From contig CM041202.1 in the NCBI GenBank assembly GCA_023078555.1, forward strand, positions 2,228,022 to 2,292,021: a DNA stretch of 64,000 nt. Reading direction: 5' to 3'. Below, piece by piece: positions 1,564-53,024 of this stretch (its first letter is position 1; each line of letters begins with the position of its first letter). The position numbers and the translations under genes were made by a program. The notes under the pieces are model-generated. The model was not told the DNA's origin. It saw only the letters and a program-made list of their open reading frames with translations, and searched no databases. This stretch comes from Ulva prolifera. Its lineage: Eukaryota; Chlorophyta; Ulvophyceae; Ulvales; Ulvaceae.

Positions 1564-4513
1564 ATGGCCAAGTGGGCTGCCCCTGTTGCCCTCGTGCTGG
1601 CGTCGCTCCTCCGAGCCGAAGCCCAGATCGGTGAGTCCCACCTGACCGCCTACATCACATGAGACTTGCTCATGTCTTTATGGTTGTTTCTGATTTGTGA
1701 AGCAACAAGCGCACCTCCTCGTCCGCGTCCTTCTGAATGACCCCCGGGCTCGCTGGTACAGCCCTTTGCCACTTCCCGAGATACACGTGGCGCTAGAAAC
1801 AGGTATGTTGCAGCATGTTGCACCCGATTGTTGCTTGCGGCGCCGCCCTGCCTCGTGGCGTCCGTTTCCCAGACCGCAGCATGTATGCCGAAGCATGGAA
1901 GGACCCCCCCGGCGCCATCTCACGCTGACCGCAACTCCGCATGCAGTTGGGACCAATTTCGCTTCCTGCACGCTCACCGGCCGAGCCTCCGGCATTGGAG
2001 AGGATGCCAGCGTTGTGTCCCGCGCAGGTGTGCACCCCGGCCACCGCTGCATTTACAACCCACTGGAATTGAATCCAGTGTCCACCTGTAGCCACGGCGC
2101 TTTGCCGGGCCGGTCAGCTGTCCCGACATGCCTGTATCGCCCACCTGTGGCCGCATTTGGCATTCTCTCCATGAGCGTACCTATGCTGATGGCTGTCTGC
2201 GTGTGCAGCCTCGACCGTCGCGGCCAACGTGTGCGGCGGCGAAACGCAGAACGCGGAGGACGTCGCCCGCCAGGTCGCCACAGCCACCGCCACCGCGATC
2301 GCTAACTCCACCGCTGCCTGCATCACTTGTGCGCCCCCCCTGGGAAGCTGACCGCCTCTCCCCTCGAGCAACGCATTGTCCGCACAGTGCGGCCGAGACG
2401 TGCACCTGCAATTATTATGCGAGCGTGAATCCTGACATATGAGCTTTTGCCTGGGTAAGGAACGGAATGTGTTGCGGGCTGTACCGCCATTGCCGTGCAC
2501 CCTTCCTTGTTATGGCGGATTGAGGTCCGCCACTCACACAGCACAGCATACGCATCCCACACTCATCAGTTGCCGGTTGAGCCTTCGGGGTTGGCACATT
2601 CAGGTCATCAGTTCCCTCTTCTACAACGCCTTCTGAGTGCAGTAACCGTTGTCATAATCACACTCGCCCGGATGACCGTCTTGTGTGGTGTCGGCCTGTA
2701 CCCACTCTTCAGTAACGAAAACAGTCACAAACCGATGCGGCGGTTGCACTGACGCTGCTGGCTGCTGCCTGCAGCTGGCCTCGGGAGCTTCACGGTGAAC
2801 GGCCTGTCTCTCGGGCAGGCGCGCGCGACCGCCGTCGCCGAGGCCTTCGCGACCGCCCTCGCAACTGCCCCCGCCTGCGACGGCTGCGAAGCCGTCGCCA
2901 ACTTCACCGGCCGCAGCTTCAGCGAGATCCTGATCAACGCGACCGCCCGCGCGGAGGTCAACTTTGACTCCTCCACCTCCACGGACCCTACCACGACGGC
3001 GACCCAGTTTGCGGAGGACATCGCGTCAGTCGTCATCCGCGCGTTCTCAACGGTTTGTTCCCACCCTGCAATGATAATAAGTTGAACATGTTTTAAAAGC
3101 CTGAAAATATAAAATAAAAATAAAATTGTTATTCAACCACGATGAAGCATTTCTTTTCAAAACAAATCATCCCCCCACACAACCTGTACTCCTCACCAAA
3201 GAGACTACCGGTTTGCATCCACAAATGCAAGATCCACAACAGTTCCACCCTTTTCTGTCTAAAAAAAGCAGGAACAAGCACAAAAACCACAAATCAGCGT
3301 GGTCAATGCGAGCCAGGGGGGGGCCTGCCACAGGCTTCTGCTGTCTCAACAGCAGCAGAGTGGCCAAACCCCGCGAATCAATGCATGTGTGCGCATGCAG
3401 GCAATCTCCACGGCCCGCTCCTCCGCCGAGAACAACTGCAGCGCCGAGATCCTCGCGACCGGTGTCACCGGCGAAGTCGGCGACCCCAACCCCAACGCCG
3501 TCTTCTGCTCGGTCATCTCGCTGACGCGGGACAGGAGCGTCGCGAACGATGTCGTGGCTGCGGCGTCACAAGAGGCCATCGCCCTCGCAGGCTGCACCCC
3601 CGGCCAGACCGGCACACTCACAGACACAGCCACGGTGCCGCCCCTCCTCCGGCCTGCTGTGCCGAATGGACGTAAGGGCTGCAGAAGCGCCGTTCTGTGT
3701 GCTGGTGGTAGTGTTCTATGCCCGCTGTACCGCCGGATCGCTGATTCCGCCAATGCAGAGTTTGCTTCAAGCCGGTTGCCCGGCGAAGTAGATTTGGAAA
3801 TGCGCTGGCCGTGTCCTGCCGCGGGCATGTACCTGCGCCACTGGCGTCCTCTGACCTGCAGCGACAATCTAGTCGCATGGCCGCTATACCAGTGCTACAC
3901 CCGCAAAGATGTGACGGGCGGGTGCTGTGCAGCTTCTGGCGGAGGCGTTCGCTTCAGCGCTGGCCCTCGTGGCGGTCAGCTGCGACACCCGCGGCCCCGG
4001 CAACCTCTGCGCGGCTGGAGAGTCTGACATCCAGGCTGCGATCAACGTGCGCGCCCGCTGCGTCCCCCAAGCACACCTGCGTAATGACAGTTTAAACCGT
4101 ACCTGCGTACACCGTTGGACTGATGCTGATGGTTGCAATGCCTGGCAGTATACGCTTCGCAGGGCTCTGCCTGTCTGCAAACAGACGTTACCCTCGACCT
4201 GGGTCGAGCCTTTTAGGCATTTTATTTATTGCTGTTTACAGTGTGCAGCTGCTGGGCACCGCCACACGCTGAGCGGCACTCAACGCATCCAAGCTCAGTT
4301 CTGATCAAGGTGTAGCACGAGTTGTTTCCTGTGCCAACAACGTGGACGTGGCGTATGCAGGCGACGGCAGGCGCGTTTGCGCGGACGCTGGCAAACGGCA
4401 CGGCCGTTTGCAACGGCAACACGTGCACGCTGGCGGCTGAGGTGGTGGCAGAGGCGGTGCTGCCAGTCGCTGCCCAGGCTGCTGCGGCCGCCCAGGCCTC
4501 CGGATGCATCGGT

Positions 4514-4551
<38 letters not shown>

Positions 4552-5516
4552 CCCCGCCCCACATGTGTATGTGTGTATATATTTACATCTACATTTAGAT
4601 GTACCCTCCAAATGAGCAAATCAAGCTTCCGATTGCAATTCCTAGCACGGCCACGGTCCGCCAAACTGCCTTGGCCGAGCCCATGAAATCCACTTGCCCG
4701 TGATCAGTGCCTTGTGCTCAGGGTTCACTCCTGGGGCAACACAGCACCTGCTGACTTGGTAGTACGATATGCATGCTGGATGTGAGGTGGGTTGTGTCAC
4801 GGCCGACGTGTGCGTCTACAGGTGATAACGCTTCTCTCACTGCCGCTGACCTGGATCTCGTGACCAACACCTCCACCGTCACGGCCTTTGCTGAAGCCGT
4901 CGCGTCGGTGCGCCCCCACTCACCCCACCCTGCTCGCATGGCGATTGTCCTGGAATGCATGTACGGATCTGACCTGCTCAAATCGTGCTTGGGTGTCTAC
5001 TTGTCACAGTACTAGTACATGAGTGTAGCTACTAGTGACTGAAATACAAATGCATGTGTGGTGGCCCTGTGCATGCCCTGCGGAGCTACCTCTGTGGCTA
5101 TTTTCTTGTTACATACGCATGGCCAGCTGAACACCCCACCCTCCTCACCGGAACAAATTGGCAACGTGTCGCCATCATGTGTGCAGGCCTTTGCTAACGC
5201 AGAGGAGGGCTGCGTCATCACTACCAACACCACGGCCACCGTCGTGCCGACCAACCCACCCGTCGTGTCCACTCCCGAGACGCGGCCGCCGCTGCCCCCC
5301 CCCGCCCTCGTAGACCCGCTCCCCTGCGCCGGTGAATGTGCGCCCCAGGGGCGCAAGTGCGCCGGCCTCAACTTCCCCGTCGCCCTGCCGTGCTGTGAGG
5401 AGGGCTTCCTGTGTGTCGAGCGCACTCCCGCGTTTGCGCAGTGCCGCTTCCAGGGCATCCCGGGGCTCGTCGGCTGGACCGGCAACATCATCCCCTGCGG
5501 CACCCCCGGCCCTTAG
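1564..5516 (+). CDS. Gene A: secreted Ala-rich, Cys-ladder protein with 8-Cys C-terminal domain
   Basis: Spliced model with eight exons: 1564-1630, 2209-2328, 2775-3052, 3401-3634, 3933-4046, 4361-4511, 4822-4907 and 5187-5516. It is continuously open and predicts 459 aa. Residues 1-20 (MAKWAAPVALVLASLLRAEA) are a clear signal peptide with an AEA cleavage site, so the product is probably secreted. The middle is Ala-rich, with helical A-E-A-x-A segments and paired cysteines (ACDGC in exon 3, AVCNGNTC in exon 6). Several N-x-T/S sites are present. A short Thr/Pro linker leads to the C-terminal domain, with spacing C-x3-C-x6-C-x10-CC-x5-C-x9-C-x17-C. Exon lengths 114, 151 and 86 match gene D exactly, and intron phases are 1,1,0,0,0,1,0. 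Intron 6 starts GTGT followed by 35 C. I do not recognise a named family; binding to wall or matrix is an inference. The ATG context has G at -3 and G at +4. Confidence 0.8.
3082..3300. other. AT/A-rich segment inside intron 3 of gene A
   Basis: This part of intron 3 (3053-3400) is much richer in A and T than its surroundings. It includes a run of short A tracts at about 3090-3130, then a C/A-rich stretch. It may be an inserted sequence, such as a retroposed or organellar fragment, but I could not identify a source. Confidence 0.4.
4516..4550 (+). repeat. Poly-C tract (35 C) at the start of intron 6 of gene A
   Basis: The exon 6 donor is G|GTGT and the C run begins at intron position +5. It is on the coding strand and is the longest of five such tracts found directly after a 5' splice site in this window. 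Confidence 0.9.
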
Positions 5517-5569
5517 ATGGGTCGTTTATTCAAAGCGTGAGGAGGTTGAACGCTCTCACGGCCCTCTGC

Positions 5570-5574
5570 TGTAA
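5570..5574 (+). terminator. Possible polyadenylation signal (TGTAA) of gene A
   Basis: TGTAA occurs 54 bases after the stop codon. In volvocine and related green algae, TGTAA is the usual poly(A) signal, 10-20 bases before the cleavage site. The position is plausible, but the motif is short and could be chance. Confidence 0.3.
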
Positions 5575-6705
5575 GGCATGCTGTGTGCTGCGGAAGACGT
5601 GTGGCCGGGCTGAGGGGCACTGGTGCCTGGTCGTCTTGAGGCAGGTTGGTGGCGCGGGCCGGCATATGCATATGTGTTTGGGCCGACTGCGTGGCTGTGG
5701 TGCTGCAGCCGCGTTCACATGCATGTGCGCCCCCCCAGTCCCAGGGTGTGCAGTGCCATCGGAGCGGCGATTTTTGTTCAGGCGGCACGGGCGCTGCGCT
5801 CAGCCCTTGGCAAGGGCAAGTGTGCGGCTGCCATGATTTCGTATGCATAGGTGCTGTGCCGTGTGGCTTGAGGGTCACGTTTTGTACTGCTGCCGCGGTA
5901 CAGCTGGCTTGCAGTGCCTCGGTGGTTCCTCGCAGAGTCGGGTAGGGACGTGTAGTGACGTTTTTGTGGCGGTAGTTCTGTCAGGGTGGCCGCTGCGTGG
6001 TGCGCCATGCCAGTGCCGTTATTCGCACCGCGTGACGATGTGGATGCGCGTGATCAGGGGATCAGCTGATCGAACTGTATGCATGTGCCGCAGGCCGCAG
6101 ATGCTGTTTGAGAAGGAAAGCCTACGAGATATGGACATGTACTCGTGTAATTGATGCAATTGTGTGACGTAATGACTGTGTGTAACATATACATTGTTGT
6201 AGCCCGGGCTATCATGGCCGTGATGCTGGAGTCACTCAACACTGGTCTGCAGGACATAGATATCTGTATAACAGTGGCTTACGTCTTCACCTTGGCAGCA
6301 TACAGTATTTTCTCACGTTCAACGGAAGTTCCTACTTGCACACTCAATCCGCATATCAGGTCGACATATGTACCTGTAATCCCCAGAGTAACTTGTATCC
6401 GTTGAGCGATAGCTTTTTTCACGTTGAACCGATGGATCACTAAGGCCGGCCCTCGCCGCTGCTCTACATCGAGGCCCGAAAACTACAGAGTACTCGGTCC
6501 AGATTTACTTTTGCGCTGCACAGCCAAAGGCCTCGTGTCGAGCCGTATGTGCACCCATGGCCAATTGGCCAATTCTGCACGCCAGTGCATGCCTCCACGA
6601 CGGAGGAGCACACTCTCGCTCCCAACACTGCGGCTGGAGCAATAGGGGAAAGGGCGACAGCTGGCATGCCTCATGTTCTGGCTACAGGCATGTACGCGAA
6701 AGTCC

Positions 6706-6747
6706 CGACGTGCAAGGGTCCAGTGGTAGAGCGGTCTTGTCACTGAA
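6706..6747 (-). repeat. Degenerate half copy of the palindromic element
   Basis: From CGACGTGCAAGGGTCCAGTG onwards this matches the right half of the perfect 100-bp palindrome at 15785-15884, then diverges. It contains AGTGGTAGAGCGG, which resembles a tRNA D-arm (box A), but no complete tRNA can be folded here. Confidence 0.6.
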
Positions 6748-7059
6748 CTTTCACAATGTATCCATTCGACTACTCCCGGCTCATCCCAGCAATCTTGGCC
6801 TGGCACGTCGCCAAATGGCACATGCATGCTGACTGCGGTGCTGGCTGCCTTTTGTCGCTGTGGCCTTGCCACGCCAGTGCTCGCGGAGCCAGTGTTGATC
6901 ACCCGCAGTGCCACAGTCGTGCGCTGCGCTCGCTATGCACAGCAACACGAGATCACAGCTGCACCGGGGCTTGTCACAGCAGGCTGACGGTTCTAGCACG
7001 TGTCCTTGTGAACACGTGGGGGATTTCCTGCCGACCTCACAAACCCAGCTTTTAACATT

Positions 7060-7109
7060 TGTGGCATTGTCATGCAGTGGTATAGCGGCCATATCACTGG
7101 ATTGCCACA
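7060..7109 (+). repeat. Palindromic element copy, degenerate left side
   Basis: The right part, AGTGGTATAGCGGCCATATC followed by ACTGGATTGCCACA, fits the family consensus. The left part begins TGTGGCATTGTC and has decayed, so the symmetry is incomplete. Confidence 0.75.
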
Positions 7110-11483: not shown

Positions 11484-14400
11484 TCAGGCCGGGTGGCCTG
11501 TGAGCGGCGTGAGGTCATCGGACGGGACTGCCAGCCCCATCAAAACTTCCTTGCCCGCATGGCGTGCCATCAACGGGGCAGCGGCATGCACCTGCCGAGC
11601 CACCGCGAGGCACAGCGTCGTGGACAGGTCGCGCATCGCATTCTCCAAGAACAGCCGCCGAGAGGCTGCGCCCGAACCTGCAGCAACGTCAGCAAGCTGG
11701 TCCAGGAAGGCGAATGCAGCCGGGCCGATCCTCCCATACGTTTCGTGAGAGAGCGGCACCAGGGTGAATGCGCCGGAGCCCGCCCGGCCATATTTGCCGC
11801 GCTTGCGCTGGTCGGACTTTGCCGCAGCGGCGCCGTCACAGGTGGCCGCCAAGCGGACACTGGAGCCAGCCAGCGGGTGAGACACGCACACGTCGCCGAT
11901 CACCGGCGAGCCGGGGAAGAACGCGAGAATGTCACCGCGCTGATCATGAGCGCCTCTGCGCGACCGGGGAGGAGGAGCCGAACGGGCACTCCGGACGGTG
12001 GCCGATCGCTGCGAACGCTGCCCGGCCGCTGGAGGTTGCCGAGGGTCAGGGGCGTCATGCATGTGGCCCGCCGCCGCCGCCGGCGCCGGCACCGCTGCTC
12101 CGGGCTCAGCCGGGTGGGGGTCGGGACGGCGTCGGTGGCAGGTGCGACACCGGGGGCAAACCCTGAGGCAGAGACAGCAGCTTCGTACGTGAAAGGAGGG
12201 GGAGCCTGGGTGCCATGGGAGGGAGCGGGCGCGTCTGAGGCAGGGGAGGTGTCGGAGATAGGCTGAGCTGTTGCAGGGAGAGCTGGCCAGGGCTCGACCG
12301 CGGGGTGGGCGCGGGGCGAGTGCGTGCGGAGTGCAGCGGCGCCAAGGACGGCTGCGCCGAGGACTGCGGCATCGGCGGCGGCAGTGCACGCTGGGGCAGC
12401 CGCAGGGAAGGTGGAGGGCAGAGCCTGGGCGCCATGAGAGGCTGCGGGCGCGACCGAGGCCTGGGCGGGTGAGGGTTCAGTTGAGGGTGACGTGCGGGGT
12501 GCTGCCGGGCGTGCCGGGAGGCCACGGCCGAGGCCTTGCGGGAGCCTGCTCAGGTGCGGTTCCACCGTGGAAGCGATGCCGCTGCGCGCGATGACGCGGC
12601 GCCACGCCTCCACGAGCAGCTTGTGGCGGGCGACCACAGTCCCCCACAGCGACTTGCAGACCAAGGAGTGGGTGCCGGATTCCCCGCTGTGGCCACAGGG
12701 GCAGTCACCATCGTCGCTCAGGCTAGGCAGCAGGGCCTCACCCAGCCTCAAGCGGGCGCACACGCCTAACTCCATGTCGGACAGGCCCGTGCCGGGGCCC
12801 GGGAGCGCCGTAAGTCATGCCGACGCGATTGCGCCCATGCAGCTGCGCAGGCGGGCCATGGCCGCACGAGCCCCTGCTGTAATCTGGGCGGAGCGGCCGT
12901 TCGTGGCCACGAGCAGCGCCTGGAAGACCGCAGCTTTGCGCCCGTCAGCCTCTGCCCGGGCGAGCGCGCGCTGCAGTTGGGTCAGCCGCATGCGGCAGGT
13001 GCACCTTTGCCGATTCGTCAACTGCCCAGTTCGCCGCGCCTGCGGGACTTTTGGCGATCTCGGGGACGGAGACACTCCACGTCAGACGAAGTCTGTCGAG
13101 CAGCTGTTGCATCTCGACGGCTGCGCAGCCCCGGAACGGCAGGCCGCACTCGACACCGTCGGCGTGGGTGCATTGAGCCAGCGCGCCGCGGATGACATGC
13201 GCCGCATCCGCGACTTCCTCGCAGTCGCGGATGCGGCGCATGTCATCCGCGACTTCCTCGCAGTAGTGCCGGAGGCCCGAACCGCCGTGGCGGTGAGGCA
13301 GGATGGCCTGCTCGGCCTGTGCCGGGGTCAAATCGGACACGCCGATAATGCTGCAGAGGCCACGCAACGACGCAACCGTTGCCTCTTCCACAGCTGGCAG
13401 GTATTCCCGGAGCGCACTCCACGGCGTGTTCAGGAGGAGATGCGCCTCCCGCTTCTGGAGGCAGTGGAACAGGACCGCCCATTTTGACTGGGACTGCAGC
13501 GGCAGTCCCACGAGCTTGCCGATGAGCTCCACGGTCCGCTGGCATCGCTGCTGCACGTGGGCGTCGACAAATGCCTGGGTGCCAAGCGGGGTGCCGCACA
13601 CAATTGAGGAGCCCCTCAGGGGCCACCGAGGCCTGCAGCTGCGCCACCACATGGTGCGCCTTCTCGGGATCCGCGCAGTACACGACTGTTTTTGCGCGGT
13701 TGCATTTGTGCCGCGAGAGGATGGCATTCGCAGCCGCCACGACGCTCTCCGCGTCTCCCTGCACATACGTATCATCGTGGCACGATGTGACCAGGGAATT
13801 GGGGGCAAGCCGCTGCGCTTCCTTCAGGGTGGGGAGGTAGGCGAGCGCTAACAGGAGCGGGCCCAGGGGGTCGCCATGCCGCACCCCCGACTCGCTGCGC
13901 AGCTCCGCTGTGGTGCCGTCCGGTCGCACGTCGACAAGCGGGCTGCCCCGCCCGTACACCGTGTGGAAGTACGGCTGGAGCTGTGGCAGAGTCTCTGCAA
14001 GCTGCGTCCTCATAGTCTCCCGGGACATCTCTTTGAAGGCATTCTGGAGGTCCGTGGAAATTGTGACCGTGGCAGGGTCAGCGAAATCTGGCCGCAGGGC
14101 ATGCCCAGGGATTTCGGCGCCACCTTGGATGCTGAGCCGATTTGAAGAGGGGCCAGCAGAGCGCCTGCGTCCGGCACACATGCCAGGGCGCAGATGCTGG
14201 CCAGTCGGATGAAGATCTCGCCGATCGTGATGGGCCGCAGGGCCCCCGGCGGCTTTTCAAGCGCAATCAGGCGGGACGCGAGCAGGGTCTCCGAGTGGGG
14301 AATCCGCCCTGCAAGGATGAGGTTGATGTACCTCCGGATAGCCTCCCCCGTGCGCTCGTCATGGAGGCCGGCGCAGCGGATGTGTTCATACGGCCACCCG

Positions 14401-15371
14401 CTCGGCCCCGCGGCTTTGCCGCTCTTCAGACTGCGCAGAATAGCCTCAAACTACTCAGCCCCGATCTGCGCTGGCGGCGTCGCGGCGGGCTCAGCGGTGC
14501 CCGCTAGCGGCGGCGCGCGTGGGTGCAGGACCTGGAGTTGCCGGACGGTGCCATCGTCAACATCCATCATGGGGGGCTGGTGCAGGCAGCGTTCGGCTTT
14601 GCTTGTGTTGCCGTTGCAGCAGCTGCGATACATGCGATCTGCCAGAGCCATGTCCGCTACGGCAGGCGTGGGGGTGCGACCCGGATCAAGATTCCCCCAG
14701 CTTCCCCCAGGGTCGATGATCATCGCTCTGCGGCGGTGAGAATGCAGCTCACACAGCCGAGCGTTCACTCTGCGGCCTCGGCCATCGCTGGCTTTCTTGT
14801 CCACCAAGGCGTACACTGGCAGGCTGAGTAGGATATCTTGGGCGTTGTTGACGCTGGGCGCGTGGTCACGCTCGGCAGCGTCTGCGATAGCCTCGCAGGC
14901 GTCCGCGACCGCTCCTGACCACGCCTTCCTGCCCTCCAAGGGCACAGTTTGACCGACGTGGCCGCGGGAGGCCGCCGGCTGGTGGGGCGAGGGGGCCTGT
15001 GGGGCGCCGTCCACAAGGCTGTGTTCCGCCGCGTCCCGCATGCACGAGTCTCTCGCGGTGTCCCCGTGGATCTCGGCGCGTGCCGTCTCCAATCCTGTGA
15101 GCCTCCCATTCTGCAGCTGCTGCAATGCAATAACTGCACAGTTGCGGCACAGCACCTGCGTGCTTCTTTTGAGGCATTCATCCTTGTAACACAGTTGTGG
15201 CACAGCAGCTGTCCAATACCTACGGTTCGTGTGCCACCCTGCCCACCCTGCCAACATGTGCACCAACACTGTGCAACGTATGTACCCAGTTGTTGTGAGA
15301 TGATGTATGGATCTATGTATGTGGTAGCATGACATGGAATGCTGCAGCAGCAGGCTGGGCCTAAATGTCAC
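11484..15371 (-). mobile_element. Decayed non-LTR (LINE-like) retroelement with reverse transcriptase
   Basis: On the - strand the domains follow in order but are broken by stops and frameshifts. The N-terminal part is 15371-14454. An in-frame TAG at 14451-14453 precedes an RT start with KAAGPSGWPYEHIR, then SRLIALEKPPGALRPITIGE. A frameshift lies near 14140. The RT palm follows, with STDLQNAF (motif A), GVRHGDPLGPLLLALAY (motif B) and CHDDTYV (motif C, both Asp kept). Another shift near 13620 leads into the thumb region. A TGA at 12815-12817 replaces an expected Trp before LTALPGPGTGLSD. A CCHC-like finger (CPCGHSGESGTHSLVC) follows at about 12690, then a Pro/Ala-rich linker. The C-terminal segment has DVCVSHPL, KSDQRKRGKYG and HETYGRIGPAAF, and resembles the restriction-like endonuclease region of related elements. 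It is inactive as read here. Assignment to a clade (R2-like, CRE-like or other) is uncertain. Confidence 0.85.
13188..13250. repeat. 26-bp inverted duplication inside the retroelement
   Basis: 13188-13213 and 13225-13250 are exact reverse complements with an 11-base loop. CCGCGACTTCCTCGCAGT is also directly repeated at 13208 and 13248. In the element's frame this inserts a mirrored CEEVADD/CEEVADA segment after the thumb region. The layout suggests template switching. Confidence 0.85.
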
Positions 15372-15483
15372 ATCTCTACACCACCTGAGATCTCACATAC
15401 TCAATTGAGCTCTAGGCATTCCTGTGTTTACCGTTGCTGTGATCAATGGTGAGCATGGTGCAGCACAGCAGTGTGGTGCACAG

Positions 15484-15517: not shown

Positions 15518-15555
15518 ATCCTTGCACCTTGTGCCACAGAGCACAGTGCAGCAGT

Positions 15556-15784: not shown

Positions 15785-15884
15785 TGTGGCAATCCAGTGA
15801 TATGGCCGCTATACCACTGGACCCTTGCACGTCGCGACGTGCAAGGGTCCAGTGGTATAGCGGCCATATCACTGGATTGCCACA
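15785..15884. repeat. Perfect 100-bp palindrome (double palindromic element)
   Basis: The left arm, 15785-15834, is followed without a spacer by its exact reverse complement at 15835-15884. Each arm contains the near-palindromic core CCAGTGATATGGC-C-GCTATACCACTGG, bounded by TGTGGCAAT outside and ACCCTTGCACGTCG at the centre. It is therefore a palindrome made of two smaller ones. A 100-bp palindrome without mismatch is expected to be unstable, so it is probably recent or maintained. Confidence 0.95.
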
Positions 15885-16435
15885 GCAGTGCAGCGTGGCG
15901 TGGTTTGTTGTTGTCAGTCTGCAGATGGGAACATTCCAGCAGGCTTTGGCAAGCTTGAATCACAATGCACAACAGCAAGTACGAATTTCAGCAAAGCCAT
16001 GCAAGCATAGACATTTCAGCGGCCTGGGCCTGGGCCTGGGCTGTATGCGTGCATACATGGCAGGTGGTCCTCAGTCACCACAGCACCGATCCTGTTGATG
16101 GTAGGAGTTTGTCTTTGCTACACCTGATCTCTTTGACTAGGTTCAGCACTACCAGAAGTTTGAGGCAGGCATTGAAGGAGTCATGCTGGCAAGGCCATGC
16201 TTCTCTGGCATGCAGTGGCAGCACACAGCAACCCAGGAAGAACGGCTTCACTGGACAGATCTTAGGAAACATGGCTGGTTCTGGACTTGCCATGGTGATC
16301 ATGGCATAAAGCACTGTATGCTTGCCATGCAGAGATGCTGCCTTCTGATCTGCACTGCTGGTGCTGTGAACCAGGGACAGGAAAGATTTCAGGACACATG
16401 TTGAGTATTCCTTGAGTTCATTCAGTGCTAACCCA

Positions 16436-18448: not shown

Positions 18449-18493
18449 TGTGGCAATCCAGTGGTATGGCCGCTATACCACTGGATTGCCACA
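18449..18493. repeat. 45-bp palindromic element (short form)
   Basis: It starts TGTGGCAATCCAGTGGTATG and ends CACTGGATTGCCACA. It is symmetric about a central C with one mismatched pair and has the same form as the copy at 33106-33150. Confidence 0.9.
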
Positions 18494-20258
18494 TTGCTGA
18501 AGGTGGGGCTGCTGCAGCAGTGCAGCGTAGCCCAGGCCTGGCAGCCCAACACTGCAGCAAGGGTAGAGCAGGGGTGACCTGCAGAAACCGACCCCTGGCG
18601 TTGCTGTCAACTGCCAGGAGATCGGATAATGGTGGTGCATTGTGGTTGTGGTGCATTATCATGGGGGTGATTCTCATAATCAGAGAAGCACCTGCGGAGG
18701 TGCTGCAGTAGTTACAGTGATGCTGCCAAAGGAGGATCACATGCTTGTGCATCACATGGCTGTGGGAAGTTCAGGATGGTGGGGTGGAGGCAGTGGTCAA
18801 TGGGTGCATGGCAGGCCTGCTGTACATGTTCAGCTTCACTGCAGAGCTGAAGTTCTGACCTGCTTTCAGCAGCTGTGCACATCTGGGCAAGCATCTTGCC
18901 CTCCTTGCATGCAGCCTGCAGCCTGAGATCGTCTGACATCCTCAAAGATGTGGATGGAATGATTGCAGTACCTGGAGGACGTATGAGGTGTCGCTGGTGG
19001 GTGGTGTAGGTGGCATTTTAATAGTGCTGTGCAGTCCTCACATACTATGTGTGTTACAAGGACTATGTGTGTTATGTGCGGCCTTGCTTAAATGGCTGTT
19101 CACCTACATGGTGGCAAGCCTACCTCAAACAAAACAAAACGTCACTCCCCAGCACGCAGCATGGGTGTGAAGCTTTGGCTACACTCAGGCATGACCAGTG
19201 GTGGGGGCTGCCTGTGCCAGGCCACCACAATTCACAATTTGTATCAACCTCAAACCCTGTGCTACAAGGGCAAATCAACCTGGAGCCCTGTGACATCCTT
19301 CTCCATGCTCGCATCACATTAAGCACAGATAACATCCGGGTCGTGCTTCACATTGGCAAGTGCCAAGTGCCCTTCCACCATGCAGGGAGACTCCAGAAAA
19401 CCAAACTAGAAAACCCAAGTTCAGCATGATGCACTGTAGGCATGCAGGCTGGTGAATCCTGCAGGTTCCACAGTGAATTTGCAGTTGTGGCAAGCATCAG
19501 GCATGCAGTTCAATCTTGACAAGAGCTGGAGGTGGGGCACTGAGACATTCCATGCAGGTCTGTGTGATGATCATAGCTCCATAGCTCTGCCATATGTGCA
19601 CATTATGCCGGCAAGATAGGTCAGCAAGAGCTCACAGCAACTCCACTGAGATTCATGGTATGTAGATATGTAAGTTTATGTGGATGTGCAGGACTCAGAG
19701 TCACATCTTACATGTGAGTTCCCAGCTGGTTTTGATGGTTCTGAGTTTTCCAACTGCACAATTCTCCTGACCTACATGACAAAGTTCTAGTGAACTCATA
19801 CTGAATCCATCAAATGCTTTGTTAAAAACGTCCATGGTACACACATCTGCACCTGGCCTGGGATGCATCATCTGCATCCTCGGGCTTGAGAGCTGGTGGA
19901 CGAATTTGAAGTGGCTTTGACTGGGCCTAGGCTTAGCCATTGTGTTTTCAGCAAACTGCATCCCCCCAACAGGGCAATGTCATATCTCAAAGATTTAACA
20001 ATGAACAACTCCTGATAGAATTCCATCTCTGTTTCCATGGTTTTGCTTTTGCAAGCTTGGCTCACAGTGTATTATGATCCATATCTGCTCCCCTCCCACC
20101 TAGCCATAGGGAGCTCAGTGCTGAAACAGAAAATAGAGATCGGAGATCACACCAACCTTGGAATGAACTCCAAACAAAGTCACACACCGGCAGCAGAGTG
20201 TGGTGAGGTCTGTCATGGACATGTCCAATTGAGATCTCTTAGCCTCTCTACCAACATG

Positions 20259-29200: not shown

Positions 29201-29417
29201 CCACCCCGCTTGCTCTGCCACATGTGTGCGCAACAACCGCAAGTGCGGTGGTGATGGAGTTCCGTTCGCGCTGCCATGCTGCAGCTCACACTACAAGTGT
29301 GTGAAGAGGAGCAACTCCTTCTCGCAGTGCCGCCGTGGTGGTGTGCCAGGGCTGGTTCAATGGGATGGGACCATCCTCACCTGCGGCATGGCCACCGGTG
29401 GTTCGGCCTCGCACTAA
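26244..29417 (+). CDS. Gene B: secreted Ala-rich, Cys-ladder protein with long Thr-Pro linker
   Basis: Five exons: 26244-26307, 27273-27398, 27538-27821, 28082-28312 and 28554-29417. The model is open throughout and predicts 522 aa. Residues 1-20 (MGRFSALVPAVAAAALLSGQ) form a signal peptide. It aligns module by module with genes A, C and D: FICGT...VSCF in exon 2, QVCENC in exon 3, three spaced Cys in exon 4, LACEIQGNGSACG and SFCPDNLC in exon 5. The last exon fuses what are four exons in A and D, so introns 5-7 are absent. A TPATPATP-type linker of about 50 residues leads to the 8-Cys domain (C-x3-C-x6-C-x10-CC-x5-C-x9-C-x17-C, ending FSQC...WDGTILTC). Codon use is less GC-biased than in its paralogues and no poly-C intron is present. 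The ATG has A at -3 and G at +4. No named family is recognised. Confidence 0.82.
29032..29143 (+). repeat. Coding Thr-Pro-Ala repeat in gene B
   Basis: Tandem ACCCC(T/C)GC(C/A) units encode a repeated T-P-A linker between the Ala-rich region and the 8-Cys domain. Such Pro/Thr linkers are typical of extracellular modular proteins and, in green algae, are often hydroxylated and O-glycosylated. Repeat number is likely to vary between strains. Confidence 0.8.
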
Positions 29418-33105: not shown

Positions 33106-33150
33106 TGTGGCAATCCAGTGATATGGCCGCTATATCACTGGATTGCCACA
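33106..33150. repeat. 45-bp palindromic element (short form)
   Basis: TGTGGCAATCCAGTGATATG to CACTGGATTGCCACA, symmetric about the centre with one mismatched pair. Confidence 0.9.
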
Positions 33151-38484: not shown

Positions 38485-41400
38485 ATGCTCACAGCAGGTG
38501 CCTTCAAGCCTGCCGCCTTGGCCTGTGCGCTGATGCTGTTCTCTGGCACACAAGCGATGGCAGGTGCGATGACTGATGGTCCATATGCATCGATGCCGCA
38601 TCTGTACATGTGTGCGCCATGATATGTACACGTGTAGTACGAGGCTGGGGCTTCAGAACAGCTGCGGTCGCAAGCGCTGGAGCTTGTACCTCTCGCCGTC
38701 TCTTCGTGGAGTCGATGAGAGGTCAAGCGCTAGGATAGCATGCATGGCTCCTGCGCTTCCCTTGTTTAGTGTATGTGTACGGACCCGGCCGCAGCTGTCA
38801 CTCCGAGAACTCCGGAATAGCCGATCGTGTCATGCATGGCGTGTCGAGCGATCGTCGTGGCGTTTGAGGCGCGAATGCCTTGCAACTGCAAGCCCTGCAG
38901 GTGGTGCGATCATGTTGAATCCAGGGTTGTATACGGTGCTAGTTCACGATGAAAGCTCGCGCAGCTAGGCATTACGATGTTGCAAGTACTGCTGATCGCT
39001 ATGTCGCGGCACCTCTGGCCACTGACATGCATACTGCCACGTTAGGCAGGTTCGACTGTTTACATAAGGATTGCAAGACCTGTCCGCCTCAGGTGCAGCT
39101 CCCTATCGCAGTTCTGCGTGAGACAGAAACTGTCTTTCATTTTACTCCTGGCAGGAACATGAACAAGATGCAGTTGCACGTCCGTGTGCTACCGCTCTTG
39201 CGTGGATCGTCGCGTGATACAGCAGAACCGTCGAAGCGCGCAAGCGCGGTTCAGCGCGCCGTCATGACCCGTGATGCATTTGCATGCCGGCCGTCACACA
39301 TGCGTGCACTCGTAGTGCATGCACAGACCACCCGAACCCCCTGCGGGCCGCTCCGCTGGATACGTGATATGTACACAGAACTGTGGCTGCTAGCTACACG
39401 TAACACGAATATCGCGCCTTCTGCCAACGAATTATCCCCGGCTATTTCCCGCATCCTGTGATGATCATCTTACGCTGCAGCTACAGCGGCTAGCCAGGCA
39501 CGTGCACGGCGTGCCCGTGTGCTGCGCACGCCACGTGGCTCGAGGTTTGCACAGCACGCGCGGTGTTGCTCGCGGTGCTTTCTGCCTTGCTCACTTTGTC
39601 CTTGTAACACAGCACGCGCCAGCTCATGCCATCGCGCCGTCTGTGAACTCCGGTCTGTTCGCCCGGATGCAAGCTGCAGCTAGGCTCCTGTATGGCATGA
39701 AGCCGCCCGTGGGAGCCCTAGGCAGCTGTGCATTCACAATGGACGCAGAGTGTGCGCATCATGATGCTTGATCAAGCATTACGATGCACGCCTGACCGTT
39801 CCACAAGCACAGCATGGCGTGGCTGTTAGCGAGGTTGTTGCGTGCGCATTGTGGCTAGAGGTGCTGTGAGCGCGCGTGCAGCGAGGATGTCATGCACTCG
39901 GGCTCTAGAGTAGCCATCGGATCAGCCCTCTTGTGCTCAAACCTCATGATTCTGTCGCAGTCCAACGAGCGAAACGAGCATACTGCGTTCTAGGAGAGGG
40001 ATTGACATGATCTGCAGAACATCATGATGTTCATATGTTTTTTCACATCATATGTTTTTTTTAATGATTATTACATGTTTTCGTTGCTGTGACGGCGTAT
40101 ACAAATAGACCTCACTGGACCTGAATGTGCAGACAGCCCAAAGAAGTCTTCTCAGAGCAGCATTGCAAAGTGCAAGGTCAAGGCGACCAGCAAAGGCAGC
40201 AGCACTGGGACGACCCGAGTCGCCGCTTCCGCGGGTGCGAACCCCCCCTGGATTTCAGCACAGAGCGCGCAGGTTGATCCCGCCCTGGCCTCAGGACCCT
40301 GGGCCGGGAGCTAGGTGCTGAAGGCTTAAGGCCCGACCAGGCCAGGACATGTCTTTGCGGTGCATCATCATGATGCATGATACCTGACAGCACAAGCGCG
40401 TGCATAGTTTGGGACGGCCGTTTGTCATTGGCCAGGCTGAACATCTGTTCGCTACTGGTGTCTAACAATTGTGTGTATGCAGCTGCGGAGGCGACCGCTC
40501 ACATCTGCGGAGGCTCAGGGTCAGCAAGCGCGGCCGCTGTGGCTGAGGCGACCGCCTATGCCGCCGCAGTCGCCGTCGCCGAGATCAGCGTTGACTGCTA
40601 CTTACGTGCGCTAGCCCCCCCCCCCCCCCCCCCCCCCCCCCTTCTTCTACGGCTGGCATTCAGAAAGTATATACCGGTCTATAGACCCAGGGAATCGGGA
40701 TAATTTTGTATGTATGATTCAGCCCGGCAACCCAACGTCGTCGCTCGTGCAGAAGGCAAGGCGTCCGTCAAGATCAACGGCCGCAGCGCCGCGAACGCGG
40801 AGGCGCATGCGTATGCACAGGCATATGCGGAGGCCATTGCGGAGTCGTCCGTCTGCGGCAAGTGCAGTGCTGCCGCCGCCTTTGTCGCGGAGAGCTGGGA
40901 GCACATCTTCCTTGAGGCCGTTGCAAAGGCGGAGCTCGAGCTGTCCGGTGAGACGAACGGCGGCAGTGCCGAGATCCGACAGACCTTGTTTGTTGAGGCT
41001 GTGGAGGAGGCGACTGTTGTCGCCTACGCTGATGTGCGCACCCTTGGCTTCAAGACCAAATGTCTGCCGAGCATACTGAATCATGCTAGACATCGTGTAT
41101 GAAGCACTGCTGTGCGGCCGCCCGTGCTGAAACACCGGGTGCCGGCCTTTGGGTGCGCTATGGGTATGTGGCCACTTGCGGCTGCAGCTGTGCATGTCCG
41201 CCAGGCCTGGCTGAAGAATGCAAAGCACCAATCATAATCCGGGACTTCCGCTGGCTACACATGTTTGGCATAGTGTGGAAGGGTGTTTGGTGTGGCTGTC
41301 ATTCTGCTGCCGAGAGGCGCTCCAGAAGACAGCGCAGGTTTTGTACAGAACGACTCGGAAAAGCGGAAGCGGCCGTGCGGAAATGCTGCGCGAGTGCGTG

Positions 41401-42633
41401 CAGGTGCTGGCAACGGCCAAGGCGAGCGCCGACGCGGGCTGCGATGTTACCATCCTTGGCGAGGTGGCCACCGGCGACGAGGACGACCTGAACGTCGTGT
41501 CGTGCGAGATCACGGCGGTCGGCACAGACAACAACATCATGAAGGACGCCGTCGCGGAGGCCGTTGCGGAGGCCGCCGCGTATGCATGCGACGGCAAGGC
41601 GGATGCCCAGATCGAGCTTGCTGCAACAGTGTGCCCCCTCGGCCCCCTACACAGGCCCCTAGCCCCTTTCAAGGCTTCGAACATGTGGTGTTGTGACAAG
41701 CCAATGCTTGCCCTGATCCAGCAGCAGATCTGTCAGCCCGCCGCTTGCATGTGTCTATCTCTTTTGCTAGCTGCCAATTCAATTATTTATCGGTGCGGGT
41801 GATCGCGAGCGCGAGCGCTGGTAGAGGGGACAGCGTGCCCCGGTCTCTGACAATCCATGTCAATTGAGCTCACGCATGAGTGGCATGCAGGCGTATGCCG
41901 AGGCAGTCGCACACGCGATCGCGGAGATCGGCATCAGCTGCTACGTCGAGGGCAAGGGCATTGCGTGCGCGTACGGCGCGGCTGACATCAAGACCGTCGC
42001 AGAGGCGACCGCGACCGCGTTTGCCCGTGGCTACGCCGAGGCCATCAGCGACTGCGGCAAGTGCTCCGCCTCCGTCGAGGCCATCGCCGAGGCCGTGTCC
42101 AGCGTCATCGTCAAGGCCTACGCCGAGGCCTACAACGAAGTCTGCCTCGGTGCGCCCCGCCCGCCCCCCACGCTGCGTGCTGTGCTGTGTGCTATACCGA
42201 GTGGCGCGTGCTGCGCGTCATGCTCTGCATGTATTGACGGGCAACCCTGGATGCGTGGTGTCGCGCCAGACTGGCTGTTCTGACCCGAGCGCGTGCATGC
42301 GTGCGTGCAGACTCCGGCTACTTCTACGAGATCGAGCTCGTGGAGGTCATCAACAAGGCAACGATCACCGCGGTCGCCGAGGCGTTCGCGAGCGCCGTCG
42401 TGAAGGATGGTGAGTGTGAGGCCGTGGGCGAGGCCGGCGCCGAGACGATCGTCTGCGAGGACTGCGTCGCCAAGCACCGTCGCTGCGGCGGCCATGGCTT
42501 TGACAAGGTCGTTGGCTGCTGCGACGAGGGCTACTCGTGCTACAAGAAGTCCAAGAGATCCCGCTGGATGACCTGCTCCAGCGACAAGTCGTTCTTCGTG
42601 GACCGCTGGGTCAAGCACGACTGCGAGGCGTAG
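38485..42633 (+). CDS. Gene C: secreted Ala-rich, Cys-ladder protein with 8-Cys C-terminal domain
   Basis: Six exons: 38485-38563, 40483-40605, 40753-41033, 41404-41628, 41891-42149 and 42311-42633, predicting 429 aa. The first exon lies far upstream but encodes a typical signal peptide (MLTAGAFKPAALACALMLFS, then GTQAMA), ends in phase 1 and has the same length (79 nt) as exon 1 of gene D. Exons 3 (281 nt) and 4 (225 nt) also match D exactly. Cys modules are HICGG...VDCY, SVCGKC, three Cys in exon 4, ISCYVEGKGIACA and SDCGKC. Introns 5 and 7 of A and D are missing; intron 6 is kept. The 8-Cys domain is the most divergent (C-x2-C-x6-C-x10-CC-x5-C-x11-C-x15-C, WMTC) and has no Pro linker. Intron 2 begins GTGCGCTAG followed by 27 C. 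The function is not recognised; secretion is well supported. Confidence 0.8.
39563..39612 (-). repeat. Dispersed repeat, reverse copy in intron 1 of gene C
   Basis: Read on the - strand it begins TGTGTTACAAGGACAAAG, then AGCAAGGCAGAAAGCACCGC, close to the copies at 10784 and 46571. Its length before divergence is about 50 bases. Confidence 0.7.
40021..40085. other. AT-rich island inside intron 1 of gene C
   Basis: A sharp AT-rich patch with T runs and a repeated CATATGTTTTTT motif in an otherwise GC-rich intron of 1.9 kb. It may be an insertion remnant. Confidence 0.4.
40615..40641 (+). repeat. Poly-C tract (27 C) at the start of intron 2 of gene C
   Basis: The donor is C|GTGCGCTAG and the C run starts at intron position +10. 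It is on the coding strand. Confidence 0.9.
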
Positions 42634-46570: not shown

Positions 46571-46652
46571 TGTGTCACAAGGACAAAGCAAGCAAGGCAG
46601 GGAGCACCGCGAGCAGCGACCAGGGGAACCGCACACCACTCAACAAGCCACA
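46571..46652 (+). repeat. Dispersed repeat, full copy
   Basis: It begins TGTGTCACAAGGACAAAGCA and matches the copy at 10784-10865 over about 80 bases with few differences. In one frame both read C-[YH]-KDKASKAGSTASS, so the unit may derive from a coding part of a mobile element. Confidence 0.7.
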
Positions 46653-48128: not shown

Positions 48129-51100
48129 ATGGGACTGCTAGCCTCGACGGTGCCCGTCCTCTGTGCGGCTGTTGCCGCGAGCAGCGCACATGCAGCTACC
48201 TTCGAAGGTGTGTTTGTACCTCTTTGGAGTGATTTTGGAGCGCGCTGGCGCACCGGTGTCTCCGCCGCGACTCCACATCGCTTGTGGTTGCTGTGGCCAC
48301 TGCAGGGCTTTCTTGTCGTTCGTGACTGCAGGGCTTCGATGTGGTGCCTTGACCGGGCCAGCCTGGAAAGGCGACTTGAATTTAACGTCGTCATATCGTG
48401 GTCCCGGGACAGTGGCCATGGCATGGCCGTTCGATAGCTACTCTGCTGCCATGGCTGTGATTGATCCAAGGTTGGGCCAGACGAGCTGGATATGTGGTAG
48501 CTGTCACCCCGCAGCCCAAAGGCGTGCGGCACGTTGGAGTCTTCGTGCCCATGCTCATGGTGCATTAATAAGCGCGGTTGTCCGCCATGGGTGCTGGATT
48601 GGCAGCATATGCACCCAAGTGAGATGCATGCATTGTTGGTGGTGATGAGGAACATTGCTCTGCCTGGACAACTCAGCCGCAGCAAGGGGTCCTGTCATGA
48701 GAAATGATTCAGCTGTGTTTTGCTATGTATAGCTTGATCATTCGAACTACCATGCGGTTCCTCCAGCGTGGCATGTTTTGTCTTGTTTTGCTGGCTTGTG
48801 ATGCATTCAAGCCAGACATTACCACAGGATCATTAGCATCTGTGGAGCTGCGTCTCCAAAGATACTGTCTTGCTGGGAAGCACAGCTCATCACCTTGTTG
48901 GGCATGTGTCTGATCTGCTTGCTGGGAAGCAGCCCAATTCAACAAGTGTGAGTGTGCTGATCACGGACACAGCTGGACTCAAGGAGCAACACAATATGCG
49001 TCCGCAAGCATTGTTGCTGTGAGCAGACACCTTCCCCCGCTTGACATATTGCTGCAGCCACTGGTCATCTGATCTGGACAATCAATTCGGTTGAATTCTG
49101 TTGCATGCTCGATGCAGCCCCAGAAAATCCCTACATATATTCGGATTTACTGCTATGTGCTTTTGCCAACATATCTAGGTCGACTGCAGTGTTCATGCTG
49201 GGAACTACACAATCAGCAGTGCCAAATCAGCGTGTGACCGTGCAAACACCTCGCGGTAAGATCCTGTTCTTGAAGTCCGATAGGCTGGTTGGCGCGCAGG
49301 TTTGGCGGTGAACATGCGAGCTCGACTTGTGCACCGCAATTGTGCATCTGAAGCTCGCGCATTGTTTCGTCTCAGCAGTGATTCGGTACCGCGGTATACC
49401 GATGCATCGCGATGTTTGTGGGCGATCTAGCGCTACGCTGTTGGTCCAGGCGTCGGCAACATCACGGCAACTGGCCATTGAACCACAGCAGATCAGATCC
49501 TCTATTGTGAATGATGCATAGGTTGATGCAAAGACAAAGCTGCAGCGTCGACCTGGTCGAGTGACCATGCCGTGTCCTTGCACGCAGTCACGAATCACTT
49601 TCAGAGCTATGGCCGGTGTTGATAACGCTCACATGTCTTGCAGACTGGCCGTCACAGCGGCGCGACCTACTCATGACCGCAGGATGCGACATCTTCATCT
49701 CCACAACAACGACTTCAGAGTCAGTTGAGCTTGCGGCAGATGCAGGTACGGGAACGACAACAAAACTGAACCAGTGATGCTTATAGGTCATCCTGAACAT
49801 GTGATTTGTGGCCTGTGCGGGTCTGCTCGAGACCACCTGCCGGCAGCAACCTGTCGTGCTCCATGATCACTGCATGCCGGTGCTTCGCAAACATCTGAAG
49901 ACCGAACATGGATTTTATCCACCAGCACGCATCGATAATGTCACCGTGATTGAGGAGGCTGTGAGTGCTTCTGCATGCCTAATGACGAGCATGTGCTGCA
50001 GCTGCGGACGCTACTGCGGTCATCTGCGGAGATGGCAGCTCTGCCAACGACCGGATTGAGGCAGTTGCTGAAGCATCTGCCCGAGCAGCTGCGACTGCTG
50101 TAGCCAACGTTGCTGCCAGTTGTTACGCAAGTGCGTACCTTATACCAACTACGCTCTGCTTTGACCACATCCGGTACATGTCCACCCGGCTTGTGCCCAC
50201 TCCAGATGGCCCCATAATATGGAACTGGCGCACGACGAGAGCCAGCTTAGCGAGAGCCAGCTTAGCGGCTTCATTCGTGCCCTCCGCTTGAGCGTCATGC
50301 CTGTTGCCGTTGTGGTGGCCACCCTGTCTCCCTTCTCCATAAGGAGCGTCCACACCTGCACACCTGTTGCTCAAACTGCCAAAGCCCAACACAGCACCAA
50401 CATGAGGCACACCATGCAACCCTCCTCCTCTGCAGATGGCAACGGCTCCTTCAGGGTCAATGGCCTCACCATCGCCCAGAGCGAAGCGAGAGCATATGCC
50501 GAGGCGTTCGCGACGGGCACTGTGGACGCCTCAGTCTGCAACCGATGCTCCGCAGCTGCGCAGTTCGTCGCCCGGAGCTGGTCCGACATCTTCTTTGACG
50601 CCGTGGTCGAGGCCGAGACGGCTCTCGAGGGCGCCGCCAACGGCGGCTCCGTCACCGCCGCAAGCAACACCTTTGTCAAGGCCGTTGCAGAGGCCACCGT
50701 CATCGCCTACGCTGCTGTGTGCCCCCCAGCCACCTGTCACTTGTTATGCATGTATCTGCAGCTGATCTGCTCTGCTCTTCCGCCATGTTAGCCTCCGCGC
50801 TCAGGCACACCCGCCTCGCTGCAATGGCTGCTTCTGACCATCCACCAGTATGGAAATTGGCCATCACGATTGATGAGAGCCCCCCGCCCCCTGGCCCCCA
50901 GCCCATTGCTTCACTTGAATCCATCAGGAGCAAGACATGAATATCCCTTCTGATACAAACCATGAGTGCACGAGAACGCACTTGCTGAGGTGCTAATATG
51001 GCGCGGCACAGGTAAACAGCTCAGCTAACGCAGATTTACTGTTCAGGTGCTCGCGAGCGCGTCTGCGACCGTCGACGACGACTGCAACACCGAGCTCCTC

Positions 51101-52293
51101 GTGATCACCGCCACCGGCGACGAGGACGACCCGAACGAGGCCTTCTGCGACATCCGCGCCTCCGGCACCGCCAACACCATCGCGGAGAGCGTCGTCGTCA
51201 ACGCCGTCTTCGAGGCCGAGTCCGAGGCGTGTGAAGACACGGCACAATCCGGCGGCCGCGCCACCGCACGGGTACGCCCCCCCCCCCCCCCCCCCCCCTC
51301 CACCCCCGTCTCTGATAGCTCTCCTTAACTGTGTCCCTGTGGGGATATAACAATTTATGCAAGTCCGGGCCATTGTATGGCAGAACACCATCTCAACAAC
51401 ACAGAGCCAACAACACATCAGCTCAGAAACCAATCAGTCAGCCAGACTGACACGGCCGAAGGCTGACCACCCGCATGACAACTCACAACCACGAACTGTG
51501 TCCTGTGGGGGACACCCTCTTGCGGAACATCGCATGAGCGTGTGGCTTTGTCTGCCAGATGCTCCACTGTCTGTGGAGCTGCCGCCTTGTTGCTGTTAGG
51601 ACGTCGCAGGCGCCCCAACAGCGGGCATGCTGCCACCACACATCTCAGACAACGCATGCGGCGAGATGGCTCCATGCCTCGTTGATCTCGAACACCACAT
51701 CGCAGCTCGCAGCCACATCGGCGCCACTGCGGCGTTGTACCAGTGTGACACAGAGATGCTGTGAGTGCAGGCGCTGGCGAGGGCTATGGCGGAGGCGCTG
51801 TCGGAGGTGAATGCGGACTGCGTCGTCATCGGCACGGGCGGCGCGTGCGCGCTCGGCGAGGCCGACATCCGCACCACAGCCTCGGTGCGTGGCCACTCCC
51901 TGCAGCTCTTGTCATTCGGCCCCTGCCCATCTGTGTACTCGTCTGCCCGGGTCCAATGCCTCCGCTCAGATTCGATTGCACCTGTCTTGCATCATGCTGC
52001 GGTAACGTGTCTGGACAGCTTCTTCCAGCCCACCCCCGATTTCATGTCATGGCACCGCATGTTGAGATTGTCCACAGTCTTGCTGTCACCACCTCGTTGA
52101 CTCGAAGCGTTAAAAAGCTGTGGCACTGTGGGTGCAGGCGACGGCAGACGCGTTTGCACGCGGCTTCGCCAGCGCGGTGAGCACGTGCGACCCCCCGCGC
52201 TGCACCATCAGCATCGAGGCCATCGCCGAAAATACAGAGGCGATCCTTGTGAAGGCCGCCTCTGAGGCGTACGGCGCCGCCTGCGCCGGTTCG

Positions 52294-52325
<32 letters not shown>

Positions 52326-53024
52326 TTGAATCTTGACCTGCCCCGACTCATGCCGCCATGCGCCACTGGTGATGTGTGGACACGCAACTCAGCATCGAGA
52401 CGTGTGTGCAGGCTCCGACGACTCGTTCTCGGTGTCCGTGCTCGAGCGCGACATTGCCGACGCAACCATTGACGCCCTCGCTGAAGCTGTTGTCGAGGTG
52501 CGTCCAGCCCCGGTTCCGTTTTGGTGCCCTCGCGACGACCTTCTGGACAAAGCTCTGCGGCCCTCGTGAAAGGCCCCTGTGCATGTTGCTGCGCTTAGCG
52601 CCCGCATCTATTGAGGCGTCAACTTGACGCCCCGCCCTCTGTCACGCCCCTGCTGATACTCACCACGCAGCACCGGGATCAAAACTCAATATGCCATCTT
52701 GCATGTATCAGATTGTATCGCGATATCGGATCACGTAGAGCATGATTGATCTGTGTTGTGCAGGCGATTGTGGACGGGGACGACTGCCAGATCTCGCTGA
52801 ACGTCGATGCCGACGTCATCCCCGGCTCGACGTGCGACGGCAAGTGCGCCGCGAACAACAAGAAGTGCGGCGGCAAGAACTTCCCCGAGGTGCTGCACTG
52901 CTGCAACAAAGACTTCCTGTGCGTCAAGAAGAACAACAACTTCATGGCGTGCCGCCGCGACGGCAAGCCCCCCCCCAACCGGCCCGGATGGGACGGCTCC
53001 ATCGTCCCCTGCGGCAAGCAGTAA
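48129..53024 (+). CDS. Gene D: secreted Ala-rich, Cys-ladder protein with 8-Cys C-terminal domain
   Basis: Eight exons: 48129-48207, 50002-50130, 50436-50716, 51047-51271, 51771-51884, 52138-52288, 52412-52497 and 52764-53024, predicting 441 aa. The signal peptide is MGLLASTVPVLCAAVAASSA, then HA. Modules follow the family order: VICGD...ASCY, SVCNRC, three Cys in exon 4, ADCVVIGTGGACA, STCDPPRC...AAC, GDDC. The last exon encodes C-x3-C-x6-C-x10-CC-x5-C-x9-C-x19-C with NNKKCGGKNF and WDGSIVPC. There is almost no Pro linker. Introns 4 and 6 start GTACG and GTTCG and run straight into 22 and 32 C. Intron 1 is 1.8 kb. It is closest to C in exons 1-4 and to A in the exon structure of the 3' half. 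The ATG has A at -3 and G at +4. The family is not recognised. Confidence 0.82.
51277..51298 (+). repeat. Poly-C tract (22 C) at the start of intron 4 of gene D
   Basis: The donor is CGG|GTACG and the run starts at intron position +6. Confidence 0.9.
52294..52325 (+). repeat. Poly-C tract (32 C) at the start of intron 6 of gene D
   Basis: The donor is G|GTTCG and the run starts at intron position +6. It is in the same intron as the 35-C tract of gene A, and gene C has GTGCGCCCCGCCCGCCCCCC there. Confidence 0.9.

Follow-up and report, generated by a model that had tools for sequence, protein, structure and literature searches.

Four secreted-looking, cysteine-rich proteins of Ulva prolifera combine an unrecognized scaffold with a CBM1-derived tail

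A 64,000-nucleotide stretch of the Ulva prolifera genome (GenBank assembly GCA_023078555.1, contig CM041202.1, C7:2228022-2292021; here called the window) was analyzed together with the remainder of the genome searched (88.9 Mb, 44 contigs), and four of its genes, designated A to D, are the subject of this report. Each encodes a hydrophobic N-terminus of signal-peptide type (judged by eye), a scaffold with 14 cysteines, and a C-terminal tail with 8, and in A, B, and many relatives a Pro-rich linker joins the scaffold to the tail. The scaffold is unrecognized in the libraries that were searched, the tail is a divergent form of CBM1 (the family 1 carbohydrate-binding module), and the four-gene array is one corner of a much larger family. 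We propose, with a probability of roughly 0.6, that the A to D products are secreted modular proteins of the extracellular matrix (cell wall or mucilage) that are docked there by their CBM1-derived tails. A role in wall, mucilage, or adhesion, which had been suggested in a preliminary description of this DNA, is the most likely use of these proteins.

The relationship of the tail to CBM1 was established through profile-profile comparison. When only the four window tails were compared to the nine CBM1s of the genome, the match had a probability of 94.0 and a score of 34.8, while the maximum obtained from 60 shuffles with the cysteines fixed was 16.1. For a set of 66 tails from across the genome, the probability was 97.8 and the score 54.6, compared to a maximum of 19.1 for 60 shuffles of the CBM1 columns with the Cys columns fixed. 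This set left out loci fetched with the CBM_1 model, domains with an expectation value (E) above 1e-9, duplicates, stretches bearing X, and sequences with fewer than 50 amino acids or fewer than 6 cysteines. Because the 66 tails had been chosen by an iterated profile that contained CBM1s, the comparison was checked for that circularity with the four window tails alone, as given above, and with 63 tails gathered by the four-tail profile and omitting L016, L010, and L013. The result was kept in both cases; for the 63 tails the score was again 54.6, and the shuffles reached no more than 18.5. Of the three omitted loci, L016 is a family member that exceeds the Pfam CBM_1 cut-off only together with its neighbors (20.7 versus 20.6 bits), and L010 (17.6 bits) and L013 (15.3 bits) fall under it. 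The four-tail profile alone also found, among the fetched frames, a CBM1 locus of the genome, L055, at an E of 2.2e-6. This locus (C3:5246043-5246369) contains two CBM1s, and a second, L061 (C7:2766546-2766638), exceeds the CBM_1 cut-off (21.0 bits) yet has a tail-like W...C extension; both resemble intermediates between CBM1 and the tail of the family.

Searches of established libraries were consistent with this relationship. The Pfam CBM_1 model matched 26 places in the genome, 12 of which were flagged as over the cut-off, and none of the four window proteins or their tails was matched. Among 36 tails scanned singly, 6 matched CBM_1 (best E, 0.0033); matches to Toxin_7 (6 tails; 0.065) and Hormone_5 (5 tails; 0.013) were dismissed as chance or low complexity. 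A profile of the 36 tails matched seven PDB sequences at an E of 10 or better, of which one was a phospholipase and six were in CBM1-bearing proteins (6rv8 [E, 0.005], 6q8m, 1azj, 5x39, 4qi7, and 4bmf), the matched stretches being judged to be CBM1 from entry names and alignments. With the profile built from the four window tails, no PDB chain was matched. In the predicted structure of the D tail, residues 6 to 42 superpose on CBM1. We conclude that the tail derives from CBM1, to which it adds four cysteines and an extension at the C terminus. Since the window tails miss both the Pfam cut-off and the aromatic triad of CBM1, we refer to them as CBM1 derived and not as members of CBM1.

The residues of the tail were then compared across the 66 sequences. 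The last core cysteine was preceded by a gap of 9 residues in 65 tails, this gap was itself preceded by one of 5 residues in 53 tails (6 in the others), and the first core cysteine was followed by 10 residues in 38 tails and by 9 to 15 in the others; one extra cysteine adjoins the second core cysteine. The C-terminal extension contains a tryptophan in 56 of the 66. Of the three aromatic residues with which CBM1 stacks on cellulose, given in the numbering of Trichoderma CBH I, Y5 was present in 26 tails, Y31 in 5, and Y32 in 49, with all three in only 5, and the A to D tails have kept Y32 only. The tails of the four window genes have net charges of 0, +6, +3, and +7, while those of the scaffold plus linker range from -23 to -43; over the whole set, the net charge was above 0 in 43 of 66 tails. 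The available part of a study of Emiliania huxleyi reports that CBM1s without an aromatic at position 35 of its alignment did not bind cellulose (PMC5962083), and this position probably corresponds to Y31. The loss of two of the three stacking aromatics suggests that the ligand is probably something other than crystalline cellulose, and the one aromatic kept, together with the charges above, leads us to expect a noncrystalline or acidic wall polysaccharide as the ligand of the window tails. A defensive function, in which the secreted scaffold would carry a tail that acts as an antimicrobial or inhibitor of the knottin type, appears quite improbable.

No credible family was found for the scaffold in Pfam, NCBIfam, PHROGs, or, by profile, the PDB, where the best match of a four-protein profile had an E of 0.026 and the matches shared no common theme. 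Pfam matches to ABHD18 and DYW_deaminase were below the cut-off and were dismissed as chance or low complexity, and an NCBIfam match to GBS_IgA_bnd_BAC (E, 2.3e-5, in one of the four members) was also dismissed, being attributable, we presume, to the repetitive Pro-rich linker. Searches of the literature listed no recognizable description of the scaffold, and no scaffold-like protein appeared in the accessible portions of a review of the green-algal matrix (PMC10762512) or a Scenedesmus genome paper (PMC7590803). The earlier view that the family as a whole is unrecognized holds, in the libraries searched, for the scaffold, which we regard as a candidate new domain family, but not for the eight-cysteine tail.

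The scaffold contains an internal repeat. Exons 2 to 4 align with its second half over 127 columns with a probability of 97.8 and a score of 81.7, compared to a maximum of 19.3 for 40 shuffles with the cysteines fixed, and a further, weaker internal match covers 71 columns (probability, 84.1). The five cysteines of each module correspond in this alignment, one of them displaced by a column or two. By this alignment, the scaffold is internally duplicated. Its alanines are enriched at even spacings, and an A-polar-A-hydrophobic alternation was found in 58 of 82 A-x-A-x-A windows, compared to a shuffled mean of 38.6, with none of 2,000 shuffles as high. The corresponding test on outside paralogues gave 78 of 129 windows (P, 0.0095, with a shuffled mean of 63.7) but was discounted because it included wrong-frame segments. 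Hydrophobic moments peak near both 90 and 180 degrees and, together with the alternation, are compatible with an amphipathic helix with Ala flanks but also with a strand. A single-sequence model of the last exon of B was mostly helical, with a mean predicted local distance difference test score of 46.4 and a predicted template modeling score of 0.29, and for this reason no fold was drawn from it; the helical scaffold suggested in the preliminary description is unproven. The even spacing and alternation of the alanines are what would be expected of a fiber-forming structural protein, in which the scaffold would build filaments of the silk type or a lattice in the wall, with the tail doing no more than capping or targeting it. 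Conversely, the 14 well-spaced cysteines and the 2-fold module point to a globular or rod-like folded domain, and the repeat extends for no more than about two and a half modules; we consider filament formation unlikely.

All four genes were confirmed within the span from position 1564 to position 53024, as the preliminary description had proposed. Each spliced model is open from end to end with GT-AG introns (Table 1), and the intron phases are common to the four genes, with exon-end phases that begin 1,1,1,0 in every case. The last exon of B is a fusion of the counterparts of exons 6 to 9 of A and D. The characterization of the products as a secreted-looking, cysteine-rich modular family, in which the cysteines are held while the remaining sequence varies, was borne out, but the count of 13 matching cysteines was one too few for the scaffold, since exon 2, with its single cysteine, was missing from the layout. 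This exon is flanked on one side by the signal-peptide exon and on the other by the CG..C exon and was taken as coding because the internal-repeat match runs through it. Its length is divisible by three in all four genes, so that a transcript from which it was skipped would keep the reading frame, and an isoform without exon 2 is possible. Several junctions were spanned by paralogues that are open in one frame: L034 spans those between exons 3 and 4 (versus B only), 4 and 5, and 5 and 6, and L011 spans those from exons 5 and 6 to exons 8 and 9 (versus D). In the table of such paralogues, L007, L038, and L045 are the window's own genes and L011, L035, and L041 are one place repeated; none spans the junctions between exons 1 and 2 or 2 and 3, which are supported by phase and position and, for exon 2, by the repeat match.

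Table 1. Positions of genes A to D and of their parts within the window
Feature	Position	Strand	Description	Basis
Gene A	1564-5516	+	9 exons, 486 amino acids, 22 Cys; phases 1,1,1,0,0,0,1,0	Open spliced model
Gene A exons	1564-1630, 1947-2027, 2209-2328, 2775-3052, 3401-3634, 3933-4046, 4361-4511, 4822-4907, 5187-5516	+		
Gene B	26244-29417	+	6 exons, 551 amino acids, 22 Cys	Open spliced model
Gene B exons	26244-26307, 26941-27027, 27273-27398, 27538-27821, 28082-28312, 28554-29417	+		
Gene C	38485-42633	+	7 exons, 463 amino acids, 23 Cys (one within signal peptide)	Open spliced model
Gene C exons	38485-38563, 40133-40234, 40483-40605, 40753-41033, 41404-41628, 41891-42149, 42311-42633	+		
Gene D	48129-53024	+	9 exons, 475 amino acids, 23 Cys (one within signal peptide)	Open spliced model
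Gene D exons	48129-48207, 49644-49745, 50002-50130, 50436-50716, 51047-51271, 51771-51884, 52138-52288, 52412-52497, 52764-53024	+		
Exon 2 of A	1947-2027	+	81 bases, one Cys, phase 1/1	Spliced models and internal-repeat match
Exon 2 of B	26941-27027	+	87 bases, one Cys, phase 1/1	Spliced models and internal-repeat match
Exon 2 of C	40133-40234	+	102 bases, one Cys, phase 1/1	Spliced models and internal-repeat match
Exon 2 of D	49644-49745	+	102 bases, one Cys, phase 1/1	Spliced models and internal-repeat match
Tail of A	5322-5513	+	CBM1 derived, 8 Cys	Profile comparisons
Tail of B	29208-29414	+	CBM1 derived, 8 Cys; preceded by Pro/Thr-rich linker	Profile comparisons
Tail of C	42451-42630	+	CBM1 derived, 8 Cys; most divergent of the four	Profile comparisons
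Tail of D	52830-53021	+	CBM1 derived, 8 Cys	

The extent of the family was investigated by searching the genome with gene D. With the D tail, all 80 first-look candidates scored at an E of 10 or better, on contigs C1 to C7 and C9; since every candidate scored, the resulting tail count is a lower bound. With full-length D, 90 of 249 candidates were scored, all 90 at an E of 0.01 or better. Chance is excluded by the strength of the best relatives elsewhere in the genome, with E values of 2.6e-14 for the tail and 2.8e-30 for the scaffold. There are at least 66 distinct tails across the genome, on eight contigs. Clusters do exist, with 12 D-tail matches on C7 at 1.99 to 2.44 Mb, including the four in the window, and 17 on C4 at 3.22 to 3.40 Mb, but the suggestion that A to D are a four-gene set expanded in tandem was not sustained: relatives occur on eight contigs and the four tails do not form one clade. 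None of 200 bootstrap trees (0%) joined the four tails. In the tail tree, whose 60 columns and 27 open forks limit this result, the window label requires 4 changes, at least 2 of them forced by starred branches. No relative that would indicate a viral origin was confirmed among 600 pattern stretches of viral contigs, and none that would indicate a bacterial origin was confirmed among 123 stretches of the genome contigs collection.

Several relatives depart from the A to D arrangement. In L015 and L019 (C5:8.906-8.911 Mb) and in L018 and L020 (C7), the tail follows different Cys-rich sequences at the N terminus, and L020 has a long linker of PT repeats. The tail-like module of L113 (C4:3299500-3306900) terminates at a splice donor; close to it, in the 7.4-kb region of the C4 cluster that was examined, are exons of another Cys-containing, secreted-looking domain. 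Tail matches at C9:36-51 kb mirror the scores and spacing of those at C4:3355-3370 kb, so that the two stretches may have arisen by recent duplication or may be one stretch assembled twice; the C9 stretch is partly masked (L087).

The tails are under purifying selection. The ratio of nonsynonymous to synonymous substitution rates (dN/dS) was below 1 in all 19 tail pairs, with values from 0.08 to 0.62 based on 56 to 59 codons per pair and with dS over 1 in three pairs. These ratios bear on two other explanations of A to D. The first, that they are decaying copies without function, would accommodate the stops or lost cysteines of some relatives (L071 and L086), but all four window models are open from end to end and the dN/dS of the B tail versus L002 was 0.26; we attach almost no weight to it. 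The second is that these are adhesion or recognition proteins (cell-cell, substrate, or mating) in which the scaffold is a stalk and the tail a variable, lectin-like head. The large and divergent family, its varied linkers and N-terminal partners, and the predicted retention of the fold after loss of the cellulose aromatics would suit such a role, while the paralogue pairs are under purifying, not diversifying, selection and neither a membrane anchor nor a partner was seen in the four window proteins. We judge it unlikely, although it is the strongest of the alternatives.

For secreted matrix proteins, the parts could work together as follows. The putative signal peptide would export each protein. 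The acidic, Ala-rich scaffold, composed of two tandem copies of the five-cysteine module plus four further cysteines, would act as a spacer or assembly domain braced by disulfides. The tail, which may be held by up to four disulfides, would anchor the protein to polysaccharide; its relationship to CBM1 is supported and its fold is predicted, and the binding is inferred. Duplication across the genome has yielded numerous versions that differ in their linkers and probably in their ligands.

Other features were found outside A to D. The exons of a RelA/SpoT homologue lie on the minus strand at window positions 57463 to 62623, with matches to RelA_SpoT (57463-59274; E, 4.8e-17) and HD_4 (62078-62623; E, 5.3e-10). 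Long overlapping minus-strand frames at about 11500 to 15400 resemble, by eye, a broken retroelement, and none of the four frames tested had a Pfam match. A recurrent near-palindromic element with ggcaatccagtgatatggccgctatac was seen by eye between genes at about 15790 to 15890, 18454 to 18494, 33110 to 33150, and 55310 to 55350. Elsewhere in the genome, genes for the light-harvesting proteins LHCII and CP29 were present, which marks the source as a green plant or alga, and psaA and psaB were not found in the assembly. The best PDB entries come from Chlamydomonas and Dunaliella, and the ranking of those for CP29 points to a chlorophyte alga.

The closest known relative of the tail is CBM1 itself (PF00734), as in the tail of Trichoderma CBH I (PDB 1cbh). 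The two share core cysteine spacings of about x10, x5-6, and x9 as well as C[AG]G and SQC-type ends, they are linked by the profile-profile and PDB-profile matches, and residues 6 to 42 are predicted to fold alike. In the window tails, by contrast, there are four additional cysteines, the C terminus is extended (W-x-G-x-I-x-x-C in A, B, and D), the triad is reduced to one aromatic, no catalytic domain is present, and the Pfam model is not matched. The CBM1s of E. huxleyi are likewise algal and nonfungal, and some have an additional cysteine pair; in the part of that paper available, there are six such domains, compared to at least 66 distinct tails here, and no such scaffold is mentioned (PMC5962083). 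The Cys-rich carbohydrate-binding modules of volvocine GH9 cellulases are also green algal, secreted, and C terminal behind Pro/Ser-rich linkers but, according to the accessible text, are joined to GH9 catalytic domains and are reported to lack the CBM1 motif (PMC6032398). No Pfam match to a glycoside hydrolase, including GH9, was found in the four window proteins at an E of up to 1. That at least 66 distinct CBM1-derived tails occur in one genome, mostly without the full triad, suggests that this alga has redeployed CBM1 as an all-purpose module for attachment. The genome offers a natural series, from tails with the full triad (5 of 66, besides the Pfam-confirmed CBM1s) to those with one aromatic or none, in which a change of CBM1 ligand is directly testable.

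Matrix proteins are poorly catalogued in many green algae. The pherophorins of the Volvocales resemble the Ulva family in being secreted, modular matrix proteins that occur in large families and have Pro-rich linkers. They are mentioned in the available part of the green-algal matrix review (PMC10762512). No pherophorin Pfam domain was found in the four window proteins at an E of up to 1, the scaffold differs, and the tail is CBM1 derived here; pherophorins are analogous in function but are not related. A more far-reaching proposal, which we put forward tentatively and at less than even odds, is that the scaffold represents a novel family of extracellular domains, a duplicated module braced by disulfides and built on the A-polar-A-hydrophobic tetrad, joined to a CBM1-derived tail of retooled specificity with up to four disulfides, and that these proteins are a main wall or mucilage family of this alga, as pherophorins are in the volvocine algae.

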